This document shows positions 12,607 to 24,056 of a stretch of DNA of 28,000 bases, piece by piece (the stretch's first letter is position 1; each line of letters starts with the position of its first letter). Source of the stretch: a virus; IMG/VR virus record IMGVR_UViG_3300025890_000115, positions 1-28,000 of that record; one strand, written 5' to 3'. The position numbers were made by a program, and so were the translations under genes. The notes under the pieces were generated by a model. That model had not been told where the DNA came from. It saw only the letters and a list, made by a program, of their open reading frames with translations, and ran no database searches.

Positions 12607-12631
12607 TATCTACTCCTATATAGTATTAAAA

Positions 12632-12688
12632 CACGTCATATTATTTCAATGACGAAGTCATTATACCATACTTGATACTAAAAGTCAA
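12632..12688 (-). promoter_or_regulatory. Leftward promoter a with covarying leader hairpin
   Basis: On the minus strand, TTGACT (12688-12683), a 17-base spacer, then TATAAT (12665-12660). An AT-rich TTAATTAA tract precedes it like an UP element. The downstream arms are AATGAC (overlapping the -10), TTC, GTCATT, then ATGAC: the middle arm pairs with either flank. The variable base is G in the outer arms and C in the middle arm. Predicted start is at the G of GTCATT, so the transcript begins with the hairpin. Confidence 0.85.
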
Positions 12689-12715
12689 GTCTAGTTAATT
12701 AAATAAAATTACTAA

Positions 12716-12970
12716 CTATATGTTTTTTAGTGCAAATTTCATCATTTCTGCTTCTTTATCTTTTGCATCCTGCTCTCGTTTTTTTTGTGAGCCTCTAGCT
12801 TTACCACCATTTGATGGACTGTAAGGTTTAAAAACTTTTTTAGGGTCAGAGCTTCTGTTTAATCTATTACGTGAAGCTGACTCTGATACTCCTAAAATTT
12901 TTGCTAATTCACGTGCTGTTATTTTTTGTCCATCATCTAATGTGTAGACAATTGTACGTATTGAACTCAT
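12716..12970 (-). CDS. HTH DNA-binding-type protein
   Basis: An 84-residue protein. An upstream in-frame ATG exists at 13042, but ATG 12970 is chosen because it overlaps the stop of a newly recognised small gene (ATGA). Residues 16-40 (KITARELAKILGVSES, then ASRNRLNRS) look like a winged or MerR/Cro-type helix-turn-helix. The rest is very basic (GGKARGSQKKREQDAKDKEAE), suited to DNA contact. It could be one of the regulators acting on the leftward promoters, but nothing shows the target. Confidence 0.7.
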   Translation of the reverse strand: MSSIRTIVYTLDDGQKITARELAKILGVSESASRNRLNRSSDPKKVFKPYSPSNGGKARGSQKKREQDAKDKEAEMMKFALKNI

Positions 12971-13083
12971 TGTATGTATTGTTCGTACTGAGCAAACCAC
13001 ATTGCAATATACAATGCTGAACCAGTAATAACCCAAATACACATATGTTTAATTACCTTAGCGGCATTAATTAAATCTTTCAT
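12967..13083 (-). CDS. 38-residue membrane micro-protein
   Basis: ATG 13083 sits seven bases behind AAGGAGAAC and inside an ATGA overlap with the preceding gene; the stop TGA (12967-12969) again forms ATGA with the HTH gene. The peptide begins MKDLINAAKVIKHM, has one hydrophobic span (CIWVITGSALYIAMWFA, about 15-31) and ends in a polar YEQYIQ. Perfect couplings at both ends and a strong ribosome site support translation. Single-span micro-proteins of this type often modulate a host membrane protein; the target is unknown. Confidence 0.72.
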   Translation of the reverse strand: MKDLINAAKVIKHMCIWVITGSALYIAMWFAQYEQYIQ

Positions 13084-13274
13084 TTGTTCTCCTTAATTAT
13101 ATTGTTTACTAATGCATTTCGAGTATCAACAAAGACATCCAATCTAGCAGATAATTCTCTTGCTTCATCGTCTCCCTGCAATAGCACACTTAAAATATCC
13201 ATAGCTTTCTCGCCTTTAGTTTCTTTATCAGCAAAAGCCATTAAGTCTTCATCAGTAAATTTATTCTTCTTCAT
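13080..13274 (-). CDS. Small anti-sigma-like helical protein
   Basis: A 64-residue soluble protein with AGGAA upstream of ATG 13274. It runs KNKFTDEDLMAFADKET (2-18), then helices AMDILSVLLQ and DDEARELSARLDVFVDTRNAL. The opening (F/I)TDEDLMAFADxE followed by an aspartate-rich second helix and a third helix is the layout of the N-terminal domain of many anti-sigma factors (zf-HC2-like, RsiW/ChrR type), without their metal Cys/His. A phage protein that sequesters a host sigma factor would fit an early operon. This is a resemblance, not a proof. It is coupled on both sides to membrane micro-proteins. Confidence 0.62.
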   Translation of the reverse strand: MKKNKFTDEDLMAFADKETKGEKAMDILSVLLQGDDEARELSARLDVFVDTRNALVNNIIKENK

Positions 13275-13377
13275 CAGGCATTCCTAGTGACATCAGGAGC
13301 ATGACTAAACCCATACCAATGAATGCTACAATAATTAATAAAATTATTGGTAGAAAAGTTTCATACAATAAGGTCAT
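13261..13377 (-). CDS. 38-residue membrane micro-protein with acidic tail
   Basis: ATG 13377 overlaps the end of the preceding gene by 17 bases, and its end overlaps the next start by 14. The peptide begins MTLLYETF, has one long hydrophobic span (PIILLIIVAFIGMGLVMLL, about 10-28) and ends MPDEEE. The ribosome site is weak (a GTGGAT stretch), so it probably depends on translation of the upstream gene. The dense hydrophobicity and the tight packing between two genes support it as real. Confidence 0.6.
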   Translation of the reverse strand: MTLLYETFLPIILLIIVAFIGMGLVMLLMSLGMPDEEE

Positions 13378-13549
13378 AGATTTCATCCACTATAGTTGAC
13401 ATTTTTTTACGTCTGTCAATTTCATAATTGTATTTACGACAAACTTTTTCTAATGATTCTTTTGTAAAGTTTGCATTCATGTACTCAATGTTTAACGACC
13501 TACTTATGTATGGCTTGTACCTGTCTAACTTACGATTAAATATGCTCAT
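13361..13549 (-). CDS. Unknown small basic protein
   Basis: A 62-residue soluble protein with AAGGAGTAGAT before ATG 13549; that ribosome site overlaps the last codons of the lipoprotein gene. Composition is Lys/Arg/Tyr-rich in the first two thirds (RKLDRYKPYISRSLN, then KVCRKYNYEIDRRKK) and ends in an acidic DEIYDLIV. No motif recognised. Confidence 0.6.
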   Translation of the reverse strand: MSIFNRKLDRYKPYISRSLNIEYMNANFTKESLEKVCRKYNYEIDRRKKMSTIVDEIYDLIV

Positions 13550-13551
13550 AT

Positions 13552-13749
13552 CTACTCCTTAATATCTATTGTTTTATCAGTTAAGAACCCATCACACATC
13601 TTTGGGTATTCGGTTTTACAAATTATCTGTCCTACGTCATCATCAATTATATTTGGTGGTATCAGTAGAGGGTCTTCCTCAGATAGTCTGTCTGTCAATG
13701 CACTACAGCCAGTCAAAGCAAGTGCAAATATTAGTGTTAGTTTTTTCAT
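13552..13749 (-). CDS. Small lipoprotein
   Basis: A 65-residue protein. The frame is open to 13797, but ATG 13749 starts a canonical lipoprotein signal MKKLTLIFALALTGC with lipobox LTGC, so Cys15 would be lipidated. The mature 51 residues are acidic with PLLIPPNIIDDDVGQ and two further Cys residues. Its ATG lies two bases after the SSB stop. Outer-membrane lipoproteins made early by phages often block superinfection; an o-spanin is the alternative, but there is no proline-rich Rz1-like body and no overlapping Rz gene, so exclusion is the better guess. Confidence 0.72.
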   Translation of the reverse strand: MKKLTLIFALALTGCSALTDRLSEEDPLLIPPNIIDDDVGQIICKTEYPKMCDGFLTDKTIDIKE

Positions 13750-13750
13750 A

Positions 13751-14203
13751 TCAAAAAGGGATGTCATCCATGTCGTTCTCAAATCCATCAGAAGCAACAG
13801 GTGTTATTGGTTGCAGAGAAGGCTTAGGTTCTCCTAAATCGCCTATTTCCATTTCTCCCTTAGCCTCGCCTTTAGTATCTAGCAATTGTAAGGCAGAATT
13901 AAAGCCTGAGAGCTTGACCTCTGTTATGTATTTCTTTTGACCATTCTGCTCGTAGCTTCTGTGAGTTAGCTGACCTTCAACGTAAAGTTTTGACCCTTTA
14001 CGAAGCTGTAATTTTTGACAGACATCAGCTAGTACACCAAAAATAACAACTCTGTGATACTCAGCCTTAGACTTTTTTTCACCAGTTTGTTTATCTGTCC
14101 AAGATTCATTAGTTGCTAAATTAAGCAGAGCTATTGTTGTACTTGCATGTTTGTACTCTACATCTTTAGTGAGGTTACCCACCAGTATTACTTTGTTAAC
14201 CAT
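13751..14203 (-). CDS. ssb: Single-stranded DNA-binding protein
   Basis: A 150-residue bacterial-type SSB. The OB-fold runs from about 1 to 108: NKVILVGNLTKDVEY (3-17), LATNESWTDKQTGEKKSKAE (about 29-48), YHRVVIFGVLADVCQKLQLRKGSKL in two segments (about 49-73) and YVEGQLTHRSYE (about 74-85). A flexible linker ends in DMDDIPF (144-150), the acidic tip that recruits partner proteins in this family. It coats ssDNA during phage replication and recombination. AAGGAGAAGTA precedes ATG 14203. Its role fits the annealing-like protein two genes upstream. Confidence 0.95.
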   Translation of the reverse strand: MVNKVILVGNLTKDVEYKHASTTIALLNLATNESWTDKQTGEKKSKAEYHRVVIFGVLADVCQKLQLRKGSKLYVEGQLTHRSYEQNGQKKYITEVKLSGFNSALQLLDTKGEAKGEMEIGDLGEPKPSLQPITPVASDGFENDMDDIPF

Positions 14204-14212
14204 TACTTCTCC

Positions 14213-14395
14213 TTAAAATTTTGGTATAAATTCATCGCCTTTGTACATCAAACTTTTTAAAAAATCTATCTTAGCTTGATGTCTTACAGCATCTATATCT
14301 CTGTCTTCAAACATTGCTTCAAAATATCTGTCCTGTTCTAGCTTCAACTTTGTGCTGACACATTCTAAATAATTATCATTAAAACCAACAATCAT
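14213..14395 (-). CDS. Unknown small acidic protein
   Basis: A 60-residue soluble helical protein with AAGGAGTATTT before ATG 14395. Contains LECVSTKLKLEQDRYFEAM (about 10-28) and DIDAVRHQAKIDFLKSL (about 33-49), which look like two amphipathic helices. No family recognised. It lies between the annealing-like gene and SSB, nine bases before SSB, so a role in DNA metabolism is possible. Confidence 0.6.
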   Translation of the reverse strand: MIVGFNDNYLECVSTKLKLEQDRYFEAMFEDRDIDAVRHQAKIDFLKSLMYKGDEFIPKF

Positions 14396-14496
14396 AAATA
14401 CTCCTTAACAAATTAGGTGACTGCTTAGGGCAGTCAATCCAGTAGCGTTTGTCTTTAACTAACGAGGTATAGGATGCCCCGACATCAGCGTAGGTG

Positions 14497-15147
14497 CTAC
14501 TTAGCCTCTGAGTTCTTTTGTTTTTCAGCAAATTCTACAGCACGTGCTTTATTATCTGCTGTTTTCTGTTCAGATTTAGCTTTTCTATCTGCTGTCATTT
14601 GTTTTTGACGTTCAATCAAAAATTCTTTTTGCTCATCACTAAGAGTAGCATTTACAGCAGAACGTAATGGGTCATTGCCACGCATATCTTTCTGACACTC
14701 AGCAATTTGCTCTTCATTCTCTTCATCTATTGCTAAACGAAACACATGAGAGATATAAGTAGTAGCTACATCTAAAGTTAATTTGTGAATGCCAATTTGT
14801 GACTGTTGAAGTTGTGCATTTTGTATTTCTTCAAAACTCGCCAAACTTCCATCAGGGGAGTAGCCTAAAAATGCAAGACAACGCCCTACAGCAGAAGTCT
14901 CACATGCCTCATAATGAGAAGTGTCATTTATGTTACTTGAACCTTCAAGTTCGTGAGCATGTCCAGTACCCCTAATGAGACCATCAACTACAGCATGAGC
15001 CTTAAAAATTACATGACCTTGCTCATCTTTAACAATTTCTGTAAGTATCTGACCATTCTCATAAGTTTTACAAAATGCTTTTACACGTTCATGAACCATT
15101 GCATAATCAGAACCATGTATGTTTTTTAAGTCTTTAATTTTATCCAT
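14497..15147 (-). CDS. Putative ssDNA-annealing protein (ERF-like)
   Basis: A 216-residue protein starting at ATG 15147, overlapping the previous stop (TAATG), with a GGAGAGCAA ribosome site upstream. The hallmark block is GTGHAHELEG (60-69), then ACETSAVGRCLAFLGY (81-96) and ASFEEIQNA (103-111), matching the ETSAxGRALAxLG core of ERF-type and related phage annealing proteins. The N-terminal third carries the beta strands expected before it (TEIVKDEQGHVIFKAHAVV). The C-terminal 70 residues are a Lys/Gln/Ala-rich helix of unclear role. Such proteins pair complementary ssDNA in replication-linked recombination, usually with SSB, which is encoded two genes downstream. Confidence 0.75.
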   Translation of the reverse strand: MDKIKDLKNIHGSDYAMVHERVKAFCKTYENGQILTEIVKDEQGHVIFKAHAVVDGLIRGTGHAHELEGSSNINDTSHYEACETSAVGRCLAFLGYSPDGSLASFEEIQNAQLQQSQIGIHKLTLDVATTYISHVFRLAIDEENEEQIAECQKDMRGNDPLRSAVNATLSDEQKEFLIERQKQMTADRKAKSEQKTADNKARAVEFAEKQKNSEAK

Positions 15148-15395
15148 TACTTGCTCTCCTTATTCTTCATACCTTTGTAATGGTATCTTGTAACACGTGA
15201 TTCTTCACCGAATCTGTTTTGTACTTTGACTTGATGTTCGTGGTCAAACTGGTGACCTGACTTTGCCATTTGTTCAATTGTTGAGGCTAGTCTAGTAATA
15301 CCATAATGTTGTATAGCCTCAAGTGAAGTTATACTGCCATGTAATCTAACATAAGCTAACACTCGTTCTTTTTGATTGCTTTTTTTAGCACTCAT
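15147..15395 (-). CDS. HTH_39-type DNA-binding protein
   Basis: An 82-residue protein in an ATGA overlap with its upstream neighbour. It follows the HTH_39 pattern: NQKERVLAYVRLHGSITSLEA (about 7-27, in two helices), then IQHYGITRLASTIEQMAKSG (28-47) and a C-terminal strand VTRYHYKGMK. This winged-helix family is frequent in phage replication regions. Probably binds DNA as a regulator or replication accessory; the target is unknown. Confidence 0.75.
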   Translation of the reverse strand: MSAKKSNQKERVLAYVRLHGSITSLEAIQHYGITRLASTIEQMAKSGHQFDHEHQVKVQNRFGEESRVTRYHYKGMKNKESK

Positions 15396-15682
15396 AATTC
15401 TTCTCCTATTTCATTTAAAAATTGTCCAATACGTCTTAGTTGTCTACGACCATTAGTATTAATAAAACCATATTTGGACTTCCCTTTTCTACCATTCAGA
15501 TTTTGCATATCGTCTAAAATTTGCTGAATAGTAGCAAGTCTTTGTTTGGCAGTTACTTGTGCATTGCCATTGTAATCTTCTTCCATAGCAGTCTGTACTT
15601 CACCATCATCGTATTCACCACCTTCGAAGTCATACTCATCTTTAGTAGCGTATGACAATTCAACACCATTAATATCAGCCAT
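15392..15682 (-). CDS. Unknown acidic early protein
   Basis: A 96-residue protein. Residues 10-40 are very acidic (YDFEGGEYDDGEVQTAMEED). The second half is basic and helical (RLATIQQILDDMQNL at about 48-62 and GRRQLRRIGQFLNEIGEEL at 78-96). Its ATG lies directly on the end of the previous gene. DNA-mimic proteins have acidic stretches like this, but the basic C-terminus makes that only a loose thought. No family recognised. Confidence 0.62.
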   Translation of the reverse strand: MADINGVELSYATKDEYDFEGGEYDDGEVQTAMEEDYNGNAQVTAKQRLATIQQILDDMQNLNGRKGKSKYGFINTNGRRQLRRIGQFLNEIGEEL

Positions 15683-15999
15683 TATCTAACCTCCAGTTCA
15701 AAAGATAAACGTTCCTGTAGCATCATCTTGATGTCATCAGTAAAATCATAATCGTAAGCTACACTATTGAATTGGTCTATGTACGTGTAGTATCTTAGTT
15801 CAATTACTCTGTTAATAGCTTCAGCTAGGATTAAAGTATTTTGTACATCTAGTGTTTGGTCTAGGTCGTGTACGATATGCTCAACTTCCATAACAATGTT
15901 GTCAGCTTCAGTCATACATTCGTCACGAGCATTATCAAAATTTGCTTCGTGTTGCGATTGCCATTCGTCACCTGCTCTAAGTTCTTTTGCTGTTTCCAT
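15682..15999 (-). CDS. Unknown acidic helical protein
   Basis: A 105-residue protein. The frame is open up to 16101, but ATG 15999 is chosen: it follows GGAGAGAAGTAAT and the longer form would overlap the zinc-finger gene completely. Residues 1-75 form acidic helices (DECMTEADNIVMEVEHIVHD), then IELRYYTYIDQFNSVAYDYD and LQERLSFELEVR. No motif recognised. Confidence 0.6.
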   Translation of the reverse strand: METAKELRAGDEWQSQHEANFDNARDECMTEADNIVMEVEHIVHDLDQTLDVQNTLILAEAINRVIELRYYTYIDQFNSVAYDYDFTDDIKMMLQERLSFELEVR

Positions 16000-16000
16000 A

Positions 16001-16177
16001 TTACTTCTCTCCAAAAAAGTTTTTCCAACAAGGTGTATTGCACCAATGAATGTCGTGACGTGTAGGTTCTTTACCAAAACCATAACCAGTTCTGTCACCA
16101 CAAACTAAACAGTAGGTTGGTTTTGCATCTTTAACAACAAGCTCAGGCTTGATGATTACGTTTGAATTATTGCTCAT
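16001..16177 (-). CDS. Small zinc-finger protein
   Basis: A 58-residue protein. ATG 16177 with AGGAGCTTAT upstream is chosen over an ATG at 16207, which would lie too close to the promoter. A CLVCGDRTGYGFGK block (23-36) and HWCNTPCWKNFFG (44-56) give C-x2-C ... C-x3-C, a zinc-ribbon arrangement. Likely binds nucleic acid or a protein partner. It is the first gene behind leftward promoter b. Confidence 0.68.
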   Translation of the reverse strand: MSNNSNVIIKPELVVKDAKPTYCLVCGDRTGYGFGKEPTRHDIHWCNTPCWKNFFGEK

Positions 16178-16191
16178 ATAAGCTCCTATTT

Positions 16192-16250
16192 TTGTAATGT
16201 GATTCAATCAATCACGATGTGATTATACAACATCCGATATAAAAAGTCAA
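16192..16250 (-). promoter_or_regulatory. Leftward promoter b with covarying leader hairpin
   Basis: Minus strand: TTGACT (16250-16245), 17-base spacer, TATAAT (16227-16222). Downstream arms are AATCAC (on the -10), ATC, GTGATT, GATTG, AATCAC: both flanking arms are perfectly complementary to the middle one, with C/G as the variable pair. The stop codon of the preceding gene (TGA, 16249-16247) lies within the -35 hexamer. It lacks the TTAATTAA tract of the other members. Confidence 0.85.
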
Positions 16251-16603
16251 GCTAAAAATATAATTTCGTCTACTTGATTACGCAGACAATACTCGTACAA
16301 CGATTTAGAAATGACTTCGTTGTACCATAAGATACGAAGTGTTGCATCGTCTACGTCATTCCGTACAATCCAATCCTTACCACCTACACCACTAGAAGTT
16401 ACATCAATACGTCCATCTGTAGAAGCTAACCTTCTTATATCTGTATCAATTGACCTGCTAGACTTTAATGACACTCTAGTGTACTTAGCCTTGACCCAAG
16501 TAGAAAAAATTTCAATCTCCTCTGAGCCAGTAAATGTGTCAGGCTGTACATCGTCTGCAAGTGACACGTTAAACTCACCATCTTGTAATGCTTTAACTGT
16601 CAT
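16247..16603 (-). CDS. Unknown early protein
   Basis: A 118-residue protein. Two adjacent ATGs (16606, 16603) follow AGGAG; 16603 has the better spacing, while upstream extension to 16681 would overlap the previous gene deeply. Contains SLADDVQPDTFTGSEEIEIF (about 13-32), a beta-rich middle with RVSLKSSRSIDTDIRRL and an acidic VDEIIFLA end. No family recognised. The stop codon lies inside the -35 box of the next promoter, so read-through from this unit and new starts overlap. Confidence 0.62.
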   Translation of the reverse strand: MTVKALQDGEFNVSLADDVQPDTFTGSEEIEIFSTWVKAKYTRVSLKSSRSIDTDIRRLASTDGRIDVTSSGVGGKDWIVRNDVDDATLRILWYNEVISKSLYEYCLRNQVDEIIFLA

Positions 16604-16826
16604 CATCGTCTCCTGTATTTCTAACCAAAGAAATGCTTGAAATGTAACAACCAGTTCGGTCTTGTATCCATTGTTTAGCATCTTGTACGTGCCATCTTGG
16701 GGCAGTTATGATTACTGGGTCAGCTCGAAATGAGCTATCTTTTCCATTTCTACCAAACCAAACCATCCATTGCATTCCGTTCCACATAGTCATTTTGTTA
16801 TCGTCATCTGTATCTGTATTACTCAT
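16593..16826 (-). CDS. Unknown small protein with aromatic core
   Basis: A 77-residue protein with AGGAGATATT before ATG 16826. It starts with an acidic tail (TDTDDDN), has NGMQWMVWFGRNGKDSSF (about 16-33), then PRWHVQDAKQWIQDRTGCYI (about 43-62) and ends GDDDDS. The Trp-rich middle and helix resemble small phage host-takeover proteins in general shape only. Overlaps the next gene by 11 bases. Confidence 0.62.
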   Translation of the reverse strand: MSNTDTDDDNKMTMWNGMQWMVWFGRNGKDSSFRADPVIITAPRWHVQDAKQWIQDRTGCYISSISLVRNTGDDDDS

Positions 16827-16834
16827 AATATCTC

Positions 16835-17185
16835 CTATTTGTTAAAATTTATTGCGAACTTTTTAGCGTGTCTTAGAGCATTTTGAAAACACTCCATTTG
16901 CTCCAAGCCATTTACATCACCTATATCACCACCACTTGACCTGCTAAAGTTAACACCTCTGTCAGATACCTCAACTGTTATTATTGAACTACCCCAGTAA
17001 CCTTTAGGTTGGTATTTAGCTTGGGAAACTGTATAACTCCAATCATCAGGGTTATCAGATTTCATGTTGTCATAATCCATAGCTTCATATGTAGAGTAAG
17101 TTACTTTAAAGCCTTGGTCATGGTCTGCTTGAGTCCAATCGCTGTAAGATTTTTTTACTAAGTTGTTATACTTTTCAGTATTCAT
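16835..17185 (-). CDS. Unknown early protein
   Basis: A 116-residue soluble protein with AGGAGAATAT before ATG 17185. Features: SYSDWTQADHDQGFKVTYS (about 13-31), YQPKGYWGSSIITVEVSDRG (about 58-77), then LEQMECFQNALRHAKKFA (about 94-111) as a C-terminal helix. Looks like a compact alpha/beta domain. No family recognised. Confidence 0.62.
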   Translation of the reverse strand: MNTEKYNNLVKKSYSDWTQADHDQGFKVTYSTYEAMDYDNMKSDNPDDWSYTVSQAKYQPKGYWGSSIITVEVSDRGVNFSRSSGGDIGDVNGLEQMECFQNALRHAKKFAINFNK

Positions 17186-17209
17186 ATATTCTCCTATAAG
17201 TTAAATTAT

Positions 17210-17437
17210 TTATCTCATGCCCAAAAATTGCCATCTACGCATTCTTATTACGTCACCTTTAATTCCAACGGATTCTGCAATAGTACATATGTTTGTAAGA
17301 GTAATCCTACGTGCATCTAGTTGGTCAAAGACTAAACCATAAGCATCAAATTTCTCAAGCTTACCATCAACAAATTTTTGTAAAGTCTCACGAACATAAA
17401 TAATAGTTCTAAGTTGTTTAGCAGTAATTTTTTTCAT
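17210..17437 (-). CDS. Unknown basic early protein
   Basis: A 75-residue protein with AGGAGATGCA before ATG 17437. Basic N-terminal helix (KKITAKQLRTIIYVRETLQKF) and a possible HTH-like second half (ITLTNICTIAESVGIKGDVI, then RMRRWQF). Small, basic and helical, so nucleic-acid binding is possible. It is the first gene behind leftward promoter c. Confidence 0.62.
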   Translation of the reverse strand: MKKITAKQLRTIIYVRETLQKFVDGKLEKFDAYGLVFDQLDARRITLTNICTIAESVGIKGDVIRMRRWQFLGMR

Positions 17438-17451
17438 TGCATCTCCTATAA

Positions 17452-17508
17452 GTTAAAATTTCATCTCAATAACAAGGTTATTATACCACCTTTGAGACAG
17501 AATGTCAA
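17452..17508 (-). promoter_or_regulatory. Leftward promoter c with covarying leader hairpin
   Basis: Minus strand: consensus TTGACA (17508-17503), 17-base spacer, consensus TATAAT (17485-17480), preceded by a TATTTAATTAAATA tract. Downstream arms are AATAAC (on the -10), CTT, GTTATT, GAGATG, and a longer third arm ending TTAAC that pairs over GTTA/TAAC. The variable pair is A/T. Predicted start is at the G of GTTATT. Confidence 0.88.
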
Positions 17509-17529
17509 GCTTTATTTAATTAAATAGAT

Positions 17530-17556
17530 AAAAAAAAGGGAGGCTATTAACCTCCC
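17530..17556 (-). terminator. Leftward intrinsic terminator upstream of promoter c
   Basis: Read leftward, the stem GGGAGG/CCTCCC (17538-17543 with 17551-17556) has a seven-base loop and is followed by a run of seven or more U. It ends the unit carrying the DUF932 gene (stop at 17564) just before promoter c, keeping the two units separate. Confidence 0.85.
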
Positions 17557-17563
17557 AGTTTAG

Positions 17564-18406
17564 TTAAGCGGCTTGTGCCATAGATTCTAGCAAAGGAATG
17601 ACTTTTCTTACCTTAGCCTCACGATTGTATATCGTAGCAACTTTGTTAGCTTCATTCTTAAATTTAGCGTGGCTAGACCAGTCAGTTAATGTGTTAAACA
17701 ATGCCCAAACAGTTGTGCCTAATTCAGCTTTGTATTTAAGAAATGTCTCTTCAAGTAAAACCTGTAGCCTGTCACTCTTACCTGCTACTTTTTCAAATAC
17801 TGCTGTAGCTTGTGCATTAGTTACCCCTGCTTTAGCAAACTGTTGCCATAGCTTAACGTTAGCTTCGTAAACCTCAAGAGCTGTCTCAAGCTTCTCGATA
17901 GCAACGTCTGTATCTAGGCTTTTAGTGTGTTTAGCACTATATGAAGAGAAAGCATCAACTACAACCTGTCCGTTCATACAAGCTAGTCTAACAGCTCCCA
18001 ACATAGACATAAACTTCCAAGTGCCATCACATGAATTAAGAACCATGATTTGTAGCTGTACAAAGTCACCAACATCAACTGCCATTTCGTGTGCAGGAAA
18101 CGTGTAGACAACTTTAGTCTTAGCACCATTATGTGAATACTCAATCTTTTTAGTCATGCCAGTCTTGTCTAAACTTGATGCCATAATTACATCGTGGAAC
18201 TGTGGCATGATGTCAGAGTCTTGCACTACATTGTAGTTCTTGCCTACAACTGCTATTGGGTCACCATCTTTATTAACAATAGCTTTATGTGTTTCTAAAC
18301 GCTTAGGCATTTCATCGTCTAAATAAACAGCAGGTCTAGTGTATAAACTCTGCTCATAAACAGTTTGATATTCGTTAGTGTCAGTTACGATTGTTAAATT
18401 TTCCAT
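17564..18406 (-). CDS. DUF932 phage/plasmid-like protein
   Basis: A 280-residue protein with ATAGGAGATAAC before ATG 18406. Matches DUF932 (PF06067, TIGR03299-type): VVGKNYNVVQDSD (about 53-65), a strand-rich block with VVYTFPAHEMAVDVGDF (99-115), VLNSCDGTWKF (122-132) and VRLACMNGQVV (139-149). Residues 165-280 are a long helical C-terminus. The family is common in phages, plasmids and conjugative elements; its function is not settled, though links to anti-restriction or DNA protection have been suggested. Its neighbours are small early genes, including an ArdC-N-like protein, which fits a defence-evasion group. Ends at the intrinsic terminator. Confidence 0.85.
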   Translation of the reverse strand: MENLTIVTDTNEYQTVYEQSLYTRPAVYLDDEMPKRLETHKAIVNKDGDPIAVVGKNYNVVQDSDIMPQFHDVIMASSLDKTGMTKKIEYSHNGAKTKVVYTFPAHEMAVDVGDFVQLQIMVLNSCDGTWKFMSMLGAVRLACMNGQVVVDAFSSYSAKHTKSLDTDVAIEKLETALEVYEANVKLWQQFAKAGVTNAQATAVFEKVAGKSDRLQVLLEETFLKYKAELGTTVWALFNTLTDWSSHAKFKNEANKVATIYNREAKVRKVIPLLESMAQAA

Positions 18407-18421
18407 GTTATCTCCTATTAG

Positions 18422-18730
18422 TTAAAGTATTTGACCAGTTGCAAGGTCAAGTGTAAATTCTGCTCTATCAAAAAATTTAGCTATTTCGATAGAATCGCTG
18501 TCACCTTCGTTAAAGTTTGGGTGACTGTCATCAAGAAACTTAAACCAAACCTCAGCGTTAAAGTGTTCGCTTGGCTCAGAGATGCCTTGAATAAGTACAG
18601 GGTGTTTGCTAGTTACGTTCTTTGATTCTATTTGCTTAACAACACCTAGTGAATCCCATTGCTCAGAAGTCATGCACGTTACGTAATTAACTGTAGCATT
18701 TTTACCAATGTAAGAATCTAAATTTGCCAT
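18422..18730 (-). CDS. Unknown acidic early protein
   Basis: A 102-residue protein with AGGAGATATAC before ATG 18730. Acidic and beta-rich (NATVNYVTCMTSEQWDSLG, about 11-29; AEVWFKFLDDSHPNFNEG, about 59-76; FDRAEFTLDLATGQIL, about 87-102). First gene behind promoter d, sixteen bases before the DUF932 gene, so the two are probably co-expressed. No family recognised. Confidence 0.65.
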   Translation of the reverse strand: MANLDSYIGKNATVNYVTCMTSEQWDSLGVVKQIESKNVTSKHPVLIQGISEPSEHFNAEVWFKFLDDSHPNFNEGDSDSIEIAKFFDRAEFTLDLATGQIL

Positions 18731-18750
18731 GTATATCTCCTAAAAGTTAA

Positions 18751-18807
18751 AAGGTGTAACCATTTCGATTACAGGGTAATTATACAACATTTGATATGAT
18801 TTGTCAA
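18751..18807 (-). promoter_or_regulatory. Leftward promoter d with covarying leader hairpin
   Basis: Minus strand: consensus TTGACA (18807-18802), 17-base spacer, consensus TATAAT (18784-18779), preceded by TATTTAATTAAATA. Downstream arms are AATTAC (on the -10), CCT, GTAATC, GAAAT, GGTTAC: the middle arm pairs with the third over six positions (one G-U). It has one mismatch with the first arm. The variable pair is T/A. Confidence 0.88.
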
Positions 18808-18837
18808 GTCTATTTAATTAAATAAAAATAGCAGACA

Positions 18838-18864
18838 AAAAAAAAGGGAGGCTGTTAACCTCCC
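18838..18864 (-). terminator. Leftward intrinsic terminator upstream of promoter d
   Basis: Read leftward, GGGAGG/CCTCCC (18846-18851 with 18859-18864) has a seven-base loop, followed by a run of about nine U. It ends the unit of the ArdC-N-like gene (stop at 18874) before promoter d. Near-copy of the terminator at 17538. Confidence 0.85.
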
Positions 18865-18873
18865 CTGTTAAAG

Positions 18874-19173
18874 TTATCTACGAATTATCTCAAATTCTCC
18901 ACAATTCTTACGAACAACTGCTCGTAATTGTGTTAATTCAAAAACGCTGAAGTATTTTGGAACTTTTTTCTCTTTACCTTCTTTGTCTTTTTTAGTAACT
19001 ATTGTCATTAATCTTGCAACAGCTTTTGCACCTTTAAGTTCTTTGCCTGATAAATTCCAAGCTTTACGAACTTGGTTAAAAGTTGCAAACTGGTCACCTT
19101 CATTAAAACCTGCCTCCATAAGAGTAGTTATGTTGCAACCAGTATATTCATCGTTAGTAATAAAGTTAATCAT
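18874..19173 (-). CDS. ArdC-N-like anti-restriction-type protein (short)
   Basis: A 99-residue protein with AGGAGATACAA before ATG 19173. Resembles the N-terminal ssDNA-binding domain of ArdC (PF08401): YTGCN (10-14), FATFNQVRKAWN (29-40), ELKGAKAVARLMTI (45-58), then a Lys-rich loop and KYFSVFELTQL (73-83). In full ArdC a metalloprotease domain follows; here it is absent, as is common for stand-alone phage copies. ArdC-type proteins protect incoming DNA against restriction enzymes. Early expression from promoter e would fit. The family match is by motif order and needs a profile check. Confidence 0.65.
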   Translation of the reverse strand: MINFITNDEYTGCNITTLMEAGFNEGDQFATFNQVRKAWNLSGKELKGAKAVARLMTIVTKKDKEGKEKKVPKYFSVFELTQLRAVVRKNCGEFEIIRR

Positions 19174-19200
19174 TTGTATCTCCTATGTGTTAAAAGTGTA

Positions 19201-19216
19201 GGGAGGTTGCCCTCCC
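19201..19216 (-). terminator. Degenerate GGGAGG hairpin in a gene gap
   Basis: GGGAGG (19201-19206), loop TTGC, CCTCCC (19211-19216) forms a hairpin of the terminator family, but leftward it is followed only by a weak ACTTTTAAC. It lies in the short gap between the first two leftward genes. It may attenuate transcription so that the second gene gets less message than the first. Confidence 0.55.
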
Positions 19217-19226
19217 CTGTTAAAAA

Positions 19227-19424
19227 TTAGTCTGCGAATGATAAGCAAGTTTCTCTAAATGCTACGTCAAAGCCTTGTTTTCTTAAAGATTTTTCTGCTT
19301 TGTAAGCTTCACCAATATCTGTATATACACCAAATATTTGTCTTTCGTCATTCTGTACTATACTAACTGCCCACATCATGACTGCTTTGTTGTTTGCTGT
19401 TACTTCTAAATTTTGCTTTTTCAT
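19227..19424 (-). CDS. Unknown first leftward early protein
   Basis: A 65-residue protein with ATAGGAGCTAGA before ATG 19424. Basic N-terminus, then AVMMWAVSIVQNDERQIFGVY (about 14-34, as two strands) and EAYKAEKSLRKQGFDVAF (about 39-56, a helix), an alpha/beta layout. As the gene closest to promoter e it is probably the earliest product made. No family recognised. Confidence 0.68.
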   Translation of the reverse strand: MKKQNLEVTANNKAVMMWAVSIVQNDERQIFGVYTDIGEAYKAEKSLRKQGFDVAFRETCLSFAD

Positions 19425-19446
19425 TCTAGCTCCTATGGGTTAAAGT

Positions 19447-19501
19447 GTGTAATTCATCTCAATTACGGTGTAATTATACAACATTTGAGTGCATTTGTCA
19501 A
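19447..19501 (-). promoter_or_regulatory. Leftward promoter e with covarying leader hairpin
   Basis: Minus strand: consensus TTGACA (19501-19496), 17-base spacer, consensus TATAAT (19478-19473), preceded by TATTTAATTAAATA as an UP-like tract. Downstream arms are AATTAC (on the -10), ACC, GTAATT (19466-19461), GAGATG, AATTAC (19454-19449): all three mutually complementary, with T/A as the variable pair. Predicted start is G19466, so the RNA opens with the GTAATT/AATTAC hairpin. The leader to ATG 19424 is about 42 bases. Confidence 0.9.
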
Positions 19502-19602
19502 GCTTTATTTAATTAAATAGAATAAATAATTACAATAAGTTGCAATAAAAATACAAGACGTGTATCATTCGAGTTCTTGGTTTAGAGTTTTCAGATGCTT
19601 AG

Positions 19603-19670
19603 AAAACACAAAACCCCTAGAGTTAAGGCTCTAGAGGTCTTGCTAAACTGGCAGTTGCCCCTGCTGTTTG
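19603..19670 (-). ncRNA. Candidate small RNA with two hairpins
   Basis: A leftward promoter (19704-19677) points into about 68 bases without a gene. The RNA would fold as a 5' hairpin: AAAC/GUUU outer stem, a small internal loop, GCAG/CUGC inner stem and loop GGGCAA. It is followed by AGCAAGA and a terminator hairpin CCTCTAGAG/CTCTAGGGG (19637-19629 with 19622-19614, loop CCTTAA), then UUUUGUGUUUU. One pair of the terminator stem is G-U in leftward RNA but would be an A-C mismatch in rightward RNA, which supports the leftward direction. Target unknown. Confidence 0.6.
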
Positions 19671-19676
19671 AGGATT

Positions 19677-19704
19677 ATTATACCATCTTATAACGAATTG
19701 GCAA
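19677..19704 (-). promoter_or_regulatory. Leftward promoter of the candidate small RNA
   Basis: Minus strand: TTGCCA (19704-19699), 16-base spacer, consensus TATAAT (19682-19677). It differs from the five gene promoters by having no complementary arms after the -10 and no TTAATTAA tract. Confidence 0.65.
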
Positions 19705-20146: not shown

Positions 20147-20174
20147 TTGCAATACATATCTTGTTTGATATAAT
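20147..20174 (+). promoter_or_regulatory. Rightward promoter for the HTH/recombination/packaging unit
   Basis: TTGCAA (20147-20152), 16-base spacer, consensus TATAAT (20169-20174). Predicted start near 20181, giving a leader of about 22 bases before ATG 20203. It is the only good rightward promoter in the region before the nuclease and terminase genes. Confidence 0.72.
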
Positions 20175-22394: not shown

Positions 22395-22771
22395 TGGCTA
22401 GACCAACTAAATGGAATAAAGAGATAGAAGAGAAAGCTCTTGCTTACATAGATGACTATCAAATGTATGGTGATATGATTCCAAGTATTGAGGGAATGGC
22501 AGAGCATTTAGGTCTTCACAGAGACACTTTATATGATTGGGCAAAGCAAAAAGATAAAGGGTTTTCCGACATATTAGGCAGATGTATGCAAGTTCAAGCT
22601 AAAACTCTTGTAAACAATGGTCTTAACAACACATTCAATTCAGCAATAACTAAGCTTGTTTTAGGTAAGCATGGATACCACGATAAGATGGAGCAAGACA
22701 TAACATCTAGTGATGAATCTATGAAGCCAACAGTCATACAATTAGTTAGTAAGCATGAGTCAAGTAGCTGA
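22394..22771 (+). CDS. Terminase small subunit
   Basis: A 125-residue DNA-recognition subunit of the packaging motor. It starts with ARPTKWNKEIEEKALAYIDD and has a helix-turn-helix at about 30-52 (SIEGMAEHLGLHRDTLYDWAK), then a helical oligomerisation region (about 55-90) with a KLVLGKHGYHDK segment that is common in this family. The C-terminus overlaps the large subunit gene by 17 bases. Order and size agree with phage small terminases that bind the pac/cos site; the three-way junction 190 bases upstream is a candidate site. Confidence 0.85.
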   Translation: MARPTKWNKEIEEKALAYIDDYQMYGDMIPSIEGMAEHLGLHRDTLYDWAKQKDKGFSDILGRCMQVQAKTLVNNGLNNTFNSAITKLVLGKHGYHDKMEQDITSSDESMKPTVIQLVSKHESSS

Positions 22772-24056
22772 AGTCCAATTACCTGATAAATTAATACCAG
22801 TCTTTGAAGGCACAGCTAGGATTCGTGGAGCTTATGGAGGTCGCGGGAGTGGTAAGACAAGAAGCTTTGCATTAATGACAGCAGTCTTTGGTTATCGTTG
22901 GGGCATGTCAGGTGTCAGAGGAACAATATTGTGTGGTCGTGAGTTTATGAACTCTTTAGGTGAGTCATCAATGGCTGAGATTAAGTCTGCCATTCTTAGT
23001 GTTGATTGGTTAGCTGATTATTATGAGATAGGTGAGAAGTTTATTAGGTCAAAGGATGGCAATATAACTTACACTTTTGCAGGACTAAGACGTTCATTAG
23101 ATAGTATCAAGTCACAGTCTCGCATCCTTATAGCTTGGGTAGATGAGGCTGAGTCAGTTAGTGGCAGAGCATGGGATTTGTTGATGCCTACAGTACGTGA
23201 AGAAGATAAGAGCATTGGCTTTAACTCTGAGGTATGGATAACATGGAATCCTGAGTCAAAGTATAGTGCAACACATGAAAGGTTTAGGGATAGCTTTCCT
23301 TCAGACTCTAAAATTGTTAGTATGCAATGGCAAGATAACCCATGGTTTCCAACAGTTCTCGATGAGCAAAGGCTTGAAGATAAAGAGAAACGTCCTGAGT
23401 CATACGAACACATTTGGGAAGGAGGCTTTTTAATATTTTCAGAGGGTGCATATTATTCTGCTGAATTACGCAGAGCCAAAGATGAAGATAGAATTACAAA
23501 GGTTAGATATGACAGAGCCAAAGGTGTAGTTACAAGTTGGGATTTAGGTATAGGTGACAGCACATCAATAGTCTTTGCACAATTCATAGGAGCTGAGATA
23601 CATATTATTGATTATTATGAAGGCTCAGGTGTAGGACTAGAGCATTACGTTAAGGTGTTGCAAGATAAAGGTTATGTTTATGAACAACACGTATTACCAC
23701 ATGATGTTAGAGTTAGGGAATTAGGCACAGGTAAAAGTAGAATGGAGATGCTTGAAGACTTAGGCATTAACAACATTGAGATAGCACCATCATTGTTGAT
23801 TGATGATGGCATACAACAAGTCAGAACAATGCTAGACAAATGCTATTTCGATGAGGTATCATGTGAGAAACTTATCGATTCCTTACAGGCTTACAGCAGA
23901 GAGTGGGATGATAATGGTAAGACTTGGAGGATGAGACCGAGACACGATTGGAGTTCACATGGTGCGGATGCCACACGCTATATGGCAATAGGCTACAAGC
24001 CTTTTAATGAGAACTGGGATAAACCATTAAGGAGAAACTTGCAAGGAGTAGTATGA
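22755..24056 (+). CDS. Terminase large subunit
   Basis: A 433-residue packaging ATPase and nuclease. Walker A GGRGSGKT at 28-35, Walker B ILIAWVDEAE at 124-133 (Asp130, Glu131), coupling motif WITWNPESK at 161-169. The nuclease domain begins near 255: SWDLGIGDST (261-270, Asp263), an acidic LPHDV (Asp317) and HGADATRY (402-409, Asp405). All ATPase and RNase-H-like nuclease residues are present and the length is normal. It docks on the portal, pumps DNA into the procapsid and cuts the concatemer. Its stop overlaps the next gene as ATGA. Confidence 0.95.
   Translation: MSQVAEVQLPDKLIPVFEGTARIRGAYGGRGSGKTRSFALMTAVFGYRWGMSGVRGTILCGREFMNSLGESSMAEIKSAILSVDWLADYYEIGEKFIRSKDGNITYTFAGLRRSLDSIKSQSRILIAWVDEAESVSGRAWDLLMPTVREEDKSIGFNSEVWITWNPESKYSATHERFRDSFPSDSKIVSMQWQDNPWFPTVLDEQRLEDKEKRPESYEHIWEGGFLIFSEGAYYSAELRRAKDEDRITKVRYDRAKGVVTSWDLGIGDSTSIVFAQFIGAEIHIIDYYEGSGVGLEHYVKVLQDKGYVYEQHVLPHDVRVRELGTGKSRMEMLEDLGINNIEIAPSLLIDDGIQQVRTMLDKCYFDEVSCEKLIDSLQAYSREWDDNGKTWRMRPRHDWSSHGADATRYMAIGYKPFNENWDKPLRRNLQGVV

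Follow-up and report, generated by a model that had tools for sequence, protein, structure and literature searches.

The closest described counterparts of the element reported here are the 5' stem-loops of the E. coli ompA and papA messages (Emory, Bouvet, Bricker and Belasco, as cited in PMC3997798), which, as far as that source describes them, likewise place a stem at or near the 5' end, do not depend critically on its sequence and carry a strong ribosome site after it. In E. coli, messages with a 5' hairpin are more stable, and RppH is hindered in converting their ends (PMC3997798, PMC7509114). The stretch in question is a tailed-phage genome fragment of 28,000 nucleotides (positions 1 to 28,000 of IMG/VR virus record IMGVR_UViG_3300025890_000115; hereafter the window), in which five leftward promoters, P1 to P5, are each accompanied by three short arms: arm 1 overlaps the -10, arm 2 begins at the predicted start and arm 3 lies further downstream. 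An initial annotation had taken the three arms for one structure. We found that arms 2 and 3 constitute a well-supported, predicted 5'-terminal mRNA hairpin that begins exactly at the predicted start, 7 nt past the -10, and that reading covariation from five paralogous copies within a single genome had merged two different features. Near-perfect sigma-70 promoters joined to such a hairpin would, in the reading that we consider probable, protect early mRNA from 5'-end-dependent decay.

Re-reading of the minus strand confirmed all five promoters, each with an exact 17-base spacer between -35 and -10: TTGACT-17-TATAAT at P1 (12660..12688) and P2 (16222..16250), and TTGACA-17-TATAAT at P3 (17480..17508), P4 (18779..18807) and P5 (19473..19501). 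With +1 defined as the seventh base past the -10, the arms, likewise on the minus strand, are as follows. At P1, AATGAC (12657..12662), untranscribed and overlapping the -10, is followed by GTCATT (12648..12653, predicted +1 being the G at 12653) and ATGAC (12635..12639); at P2, AATCAC (16219..16224) by GTGATT (16210..16215, +1 at 16215) and AATCAC (16199..16204); at P3, AATAAC (17477..17482) by GTTATT (17468..17473, +1 at 17473) and a vestigial TAAC (17452..17455), which is part of a TTTTAAC motif common to most leaders. P4 carries AATTAC (18776..18781), GTAATC (18767..18772, +1 at 18772) and GGTTAC (18756..18761), the last of which, unlike arm 1, pairs with the C of GTAATC, and P5 carries AATTAC (19470..19475), GTAATT (19461..19466, +1 at 19466) and AATTAC (19449..19454). 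The three-base gaps between arms 1 and 2 read TTC, ATC, CTT, CCT and ACC from P1 to P5. As annotated, the N/N' pair is G/C, C/G, A/T, T/A and T/A in the same order, and arms 1 and 2 match perfectly in four of the five promoters, P4 being the 5/6 case. With up to three mismatches, the bare motif TATAATNACNNNGTNATTGAR matches P1 to P5 and one coding site in the window, a count that is not due to chance, since none of 100 shuffles reached six (mean 1.5). Complementarity of N/N' at all five would have a chance of 0.25^5, i.e., about 0.001, if the copies were independent, which they are not. The stem of arms 2 and 3, 5-6 bp long, is predicted to form at P1, P2, P4 and P5, with probabilities of a paired +1 of 0.65, 1.0, 0.99 and 0.99, respectively; at P3, where a 4-bp remnant gives 0.12, the annotated pairing of these arms in all five copies is somewhat overstated.

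Five copies in a single genome are too few for inferring selection, and the relatives are decisive. These were gathered by two routes, one using the promoter without its arm letters (32 stretches, about two thirds from this phage group) and the other starting from the DUF932 protein, with no letters of the promoter (43 loci, 66-100% identity). The criteria for calling a promoter were limited to its two hexamers (-35 and -10), AT motifs upstream and a TAGGAG ribosome site. Together with the window this yielded 66 distinct leaders, 50 after trimming. The base at -1 is C or T and that at +1 is G or A in all of them, as at ordinary start sites. When 35 nt were folded from +1, 84% of the 50 distinct leaders had their first RNA base paired (P>=0.8); the same fold on 101 other phage promoters of the TTGAC-18-TATAAT type gave 3%, and a fold begun 1 nt earlier or 1 nt later gave 22% and 6%. 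An earlier profile of stem starts, which barred extension into untranscribed DNA and underestimated stems at +1, was superseded. Among the arm-2 classes are GTAAT, GTCAT, GTGAT, ATGTTTGAGACAAACAT, ATGTTCGATAGGAACAT, ATGTTCGAGATACGGACAT, AATCCCGAAATGATTTGGGGTT, GTCAACGATATTTTATTGAC, GTCGATGATATTTATTGAC and GTTACCGATTGAGTAAC, and +1 is paired at P>=0.84 in 10 of 13 classes, against 0.01-0.37 in shuffles. Unlike stems at other promoters of the same phages (ATGTTTGAGACAAACAT, AATCCC...GGGGTT, GTCGAT...ATTGAC) also start at +1. Seven different leaders were found in front of the DUF932 gene, all with a +1 stem, and in the leader of the METAKELR gene GTGATTGATTGAATCAC (GTGATT...AATCAC) is replaced by GTTACCGATTGAGTAAC (GTTACC...GTAAC) through two compensatory double changes. 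The annotated expectation of an mRNA that opens with a hairpin formed from the middle arm is thus borne out, as a prediction, by the leaders of the relatives.

The alignment of arms 2 and 3 contains double changes at all six pairs. Paired cells amount to 90.8%, compared with 70.2% after shuffling and at most 59% when the arms are slid against each other, and the covariation score is 0.650 versus 0.252 in shuffles, none of 500 reaching it. Because arm 3 was chosen by best pairing, which inflates these figures, an arm-swap control was run in which the best partner was sought for a foreign arm 2: own arms paired at 5.37 of 6 positions and foreign ones at 4.39, with a maximum of 4.68 in 500 trials. 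With G-U and A-C scored alike, 17 G-U stand against 4 A-C, which argues for a stem in sense-strand RNA. Hence letters that change while pairing is kept, annotated from the five copies, do characterise arms 2 and 3, and drift of the arms without compensation in related phages, which the annotation had named as contrary evidence, was seen only in a minority of leaders. As in 5'-terminal stabilising stem-loops, the stem stands at the 5' end with almost no unpaired bases at the predicted starts, and it is pairing, not sequence, that is kept. Selection most likely acts only on pairing and on its position at +1, and the letters of the stem would for this reason drift or be replaced freely.

A transcript made by the host sigma-70 polymerase would begin at the first nucleotide with a stem of 5-6 bp, longer in some relatives, and a small loop; the ribosome-binding module behind it, usually TTTAAC-NN-ATAGGAG, would be unstructured. 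Decay of mRNA starts with 5'-end conversion and RNase E tethering, to both of which a paired 5' end may be poorly suited, so the hairpin most likely extends the lifetime of the early mRNA; folded upon itself, it would also make the 5' end unavailable for pairing to the ribosome site. The promoter anatomy, the position of the hairpin, the pairing conserved over unlike stems and the RNA-type wobbles are computed features, and a strong, protected and well-translated early message would be their simplest account. We infer the actual 5' ends, as well as mRNA stabilisation as the function.

Several observations weigh against this account. The leaders are akin and cassettes may move between slots, so that 50 leaders represent far fewer than 50 independent events, and the covariation statistics are based on shuffles. 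Stems in the window are modest (about -4 to -6 kcal/mol), as is the mean z of the 13 arm-2 classes (about -1.4). P3 retains only GTTA/TAAC around a 14-nt loop and is predicted to be open, the AACAACAAC leaders (L276, L283, L285, L148), with a 16-nt spacer, form no stem, and in two GTCATT leaders (L271, L272) arm 3 is gone, and with it any convincing stem at +1; because of these cases the +1 hairpin is to be regarded as favoured, but not obligatory for every unit. Finally, host RNase E/RppH are assumed to be the opponent. A search of the window against Rfam gave no match above the curated score, and no +1 hairpin was found at the few promoter-like sites in the stretches fetched from the distant DUF932/terminase relatives CRP-212, HMO-2011, MJing1 and KLEP18-1.

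The hairpin could alternatively control translation or transcription, either bound by a phage protein or acting on RNA polymerase at promoter escape or in antitermination. Phage leader hairpins do serve as autoregulatory operators, e.g., in T4 gene 43 (PMC3014915), and GAGA or GAAA often stands on the loop side after GTNATT. Yet, stem and loop letters differ wholly between classes while the position at +1 is fixed, which is the opposite of what a sequence-specific protein site would show, and units with their own promoters and terminators have little need for antitermination; we regard such control as unlikely. More improbable still is the absence of selection, i.e., arms inherited with a duplicated promoter cassette and matched through template switching in short inverted repeats. 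Leaders within a class are clearly homologous, the cassettes stand before different genes, and the evidence from arms 1 and 2 amounts to few events, all of which would suit this explanation. It does not account for unlike stems (ATGTTT, AATCCC, GTCGAT, GTTACC) that share one starting nucleotide, for the excess of G-U (17) over A-C (4), or for control promoters with only 3% of first bases paired.

The relation of arm 1 to the other two bears on a further explanation, in which AATNAC-NNN-GTN'ATT, a palindrome that extends from about -9 to +6, is an operator bound by a phage repressor that silences the early promoters by blocking the -10 and the start, the hairpin being a by-product or a second function. 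A dyad with a 3-bp centre over the -10 and +1 has typical operator geometry, the motif is nearly restricted to these promoters in the window, and proteins with a helix-turn-helix (HTH) are encoded nearby. Arms 1 and 2 are complementary in a single promoter class, NAC-NNN-GTN, most of whose members match fully or at 5/6 positions, and four of the five N/N' combinations seen there are complementary (T/A, G/C, C/G, A/T; with independence and a chance of 1/4 each, p is about 0.016). The fifth, however, is broken (T/C in L276/L283) with the hairpin of arms 2 and 3 intact, the GTTACC leaders of L267/L274/L279 have lost arm 1 and retained the hairpin, and records G002 and G010 show the exact motif at no promoter, though +1 hairpins are present; the palindrome is thus not a property of all co-regulated promoters and their relatives, as an operator would be. 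Moreover, the covariation is confined almost entirely to the single pair N/N', and a single repressor does not need N to vary over all four bases. The three HTH genes examined occur in records both with and without the palindrome, and the protein at 20161 of the window is closer to the versions of palindrome-less records (73-79%) than to those of palindrome-rich relatives such as G003, G005 and G011 (56-64%). Nothing requires an operator, and we consider it improbable, if marginally less so than control through the hairpin. As arm 1 lies upstream of the predicted start, it is untranscribed and cannot join a structure in the mRNA; together with the restriction of its covariation to N and its loss where +1 hairpins persist, this contradicts the annotated single structure, and a three-arm switch is unlikely. 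It would be very surprising if the -10 palindrome and the RNA hairpin acted jointly through their shared middle arm, with the covarying base labelling each unit, so that a single regulator, or pairing of the nascent RNA to the non-template strand exposed there, linked the opening of the promoter to what becomes of the transcript. Arm 1 is more likely a separate, weakly supported DNA feature overlapping the -10, possibly an operator or a relic of the common origin of the class.

A count of N/N' over all viral contigs with the bare motif was rejected as a test of selection because its matches are dominated by unrelated phage families (fixed A/A or G/G) and T/A repeats. Promoters of the form TATAAT-NAC-NNN-GTAATCAA occur in different phages (L006, L022, L041, L068, L087, L105) with N being T, A or G, uncompensated, and are useful as a comparison without covariation.

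The window consists in part of short leftward gene units, each with its own promoter, and the label 'early' would fit them by their consensus host-type promoters and gene content. Intrinsic terminators on the minus strand close the P5 unit immediately 5' of P4 (18844..18866) and the P4 unit immediately 5' of P3 (17538..17556). The P4 unit includes the DUF932 gene (17564..18406, minus strand), which served as the bait in the promoter-independent search; bacterial genomes searched with its protein for a host gave no match. Elsewhere the window encodes a major head protein (1112-2077), a single-strand binding protein (13751-14203) and the terminase large subunit (22755-24056). P1 has an UP-like TTTAATTAACTA immediately upstream, while TTTAATTAAATA, a palindrome that is possibly an UP element, adjoins the -35 of P3, P4 and P5 and of their relatives' promoters (window 17509-19521, minus strand) and is lacking at P2; several relatives retain it although their -35 hexamer is degenerate. 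In L276, L283, L284, L285, L286 and L148, the upstream element TTTAATTAAATAAAGC recurs at a promoter whose spacer measures 16 nt and whose AACAACAACATAACTTTAAC leader is unstructured; this promoter offers a natural control without a hairpin. Besides P1 to P5, one other perfect or near-perfect sigma-70 site lies in the region, at 19704-19677 (TTGCCA-16-TATAAT, minus strand). It likely drives a candidate small non-coding RNA (19595-19704, minus strand), which is strongly structured (z -3.3), ends in a terminator at 19643-19608, keeps its promoter and leader in at least 10 relatives, and has no match in Rfam.

The translation module of the P5 leader, TTTAACCCATAGGAG...ATG, lies at 19422..19444 on the minus strand; the same type of module starts at 18751 (P4) and 17457 (P3), with a variant at 12630 (P1). 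P3, P4 and P5 share TTTAAC-NN-ATAGGAG-ATG, and P2 has TAGGAG without TTTAAC. At 19185-19216 of the window (minus strand), an intercistronic GGGGAGG-N-CCTCCC(C) hairpin without a T-run precedes the same CTTTTAACACATAGGAG module, and this pair recurs in relatives at many gene starts within operons (e.g., L283, L285, L267). It carries the layout of the promoter leaders into the operons, perhaps protecting processed 5' ends. In L256 (7060-7245), about 180 bases of tRNA-like appearance separate the +1 hairpin of the DUF932 leader from its ribosome site; ARAGORN found no tRNA in them.

The promoters of the phage N4 virion RNA polymerase are DNA hairpins with a short inverted repeat and a 3-base loop, and arms 1 and 2 are alike in both respects. 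Here, however, the repeat lies inside consensus sigma-70 promoters and is missing from sister promoters, and N4-like DNA-hairpin promoters were rejected on these grounds. The transcript of T7 gene 10 starts with a hairpin, behind which come an enhancer of the UUAACUUUA type and then a strong AAGGAG. The arrangement here (hairpin, TTTAACTTATAGGAG, ATG) is similar in layout, with a TTAAC-type enhancer and a strong Shine-Dalgarno sequence after the 5' hairpin, and no homology is claimed. The T7 enhancer is an A/U-rich element of 9 nt ahead of the Shine-Dalgarno sequence (PMC8748333). T7 relies on its own single-subunit polymerase and conserved promoters, whereas the promoters described here are of the host-type sigma-70 consensus; a search of seven relatives for PF00940 (single-subunit polymerase) gave no match, a weak result as the control genomes were likewise matchless. 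The SAS/ESAS elements of cluster K mycobacteriophages (PMC3203893) are also repeated cis elements with inverted repeats before many phage genes. Yet, ESAS are 17-bp imperfect repeats beside a start-associated sequence (PMC3203893), while here 6-bp stems of unlike letters are set to the promoter start. Searches of the open-licence literature turned up no description of +1 hairpins serving a phage throughout as the design of its early promoters. Protection of the message appears to be part of nearly every early promoter in this uncultured marine phage group. This is a natural and many-times-repeated experiment on the requirements of a working 5' hairpin, and the group's compact promoter-leader cassettes are testable in laboratory strains. 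The ompA and papA stem-loops belong, as far as cited, to single host genes; here a 5' hairpin of that known kind is employed as a genome-wide promoter design, which recurs throughout the early region in a group of phages and sets stems of unlike sequence to one nucleotide.

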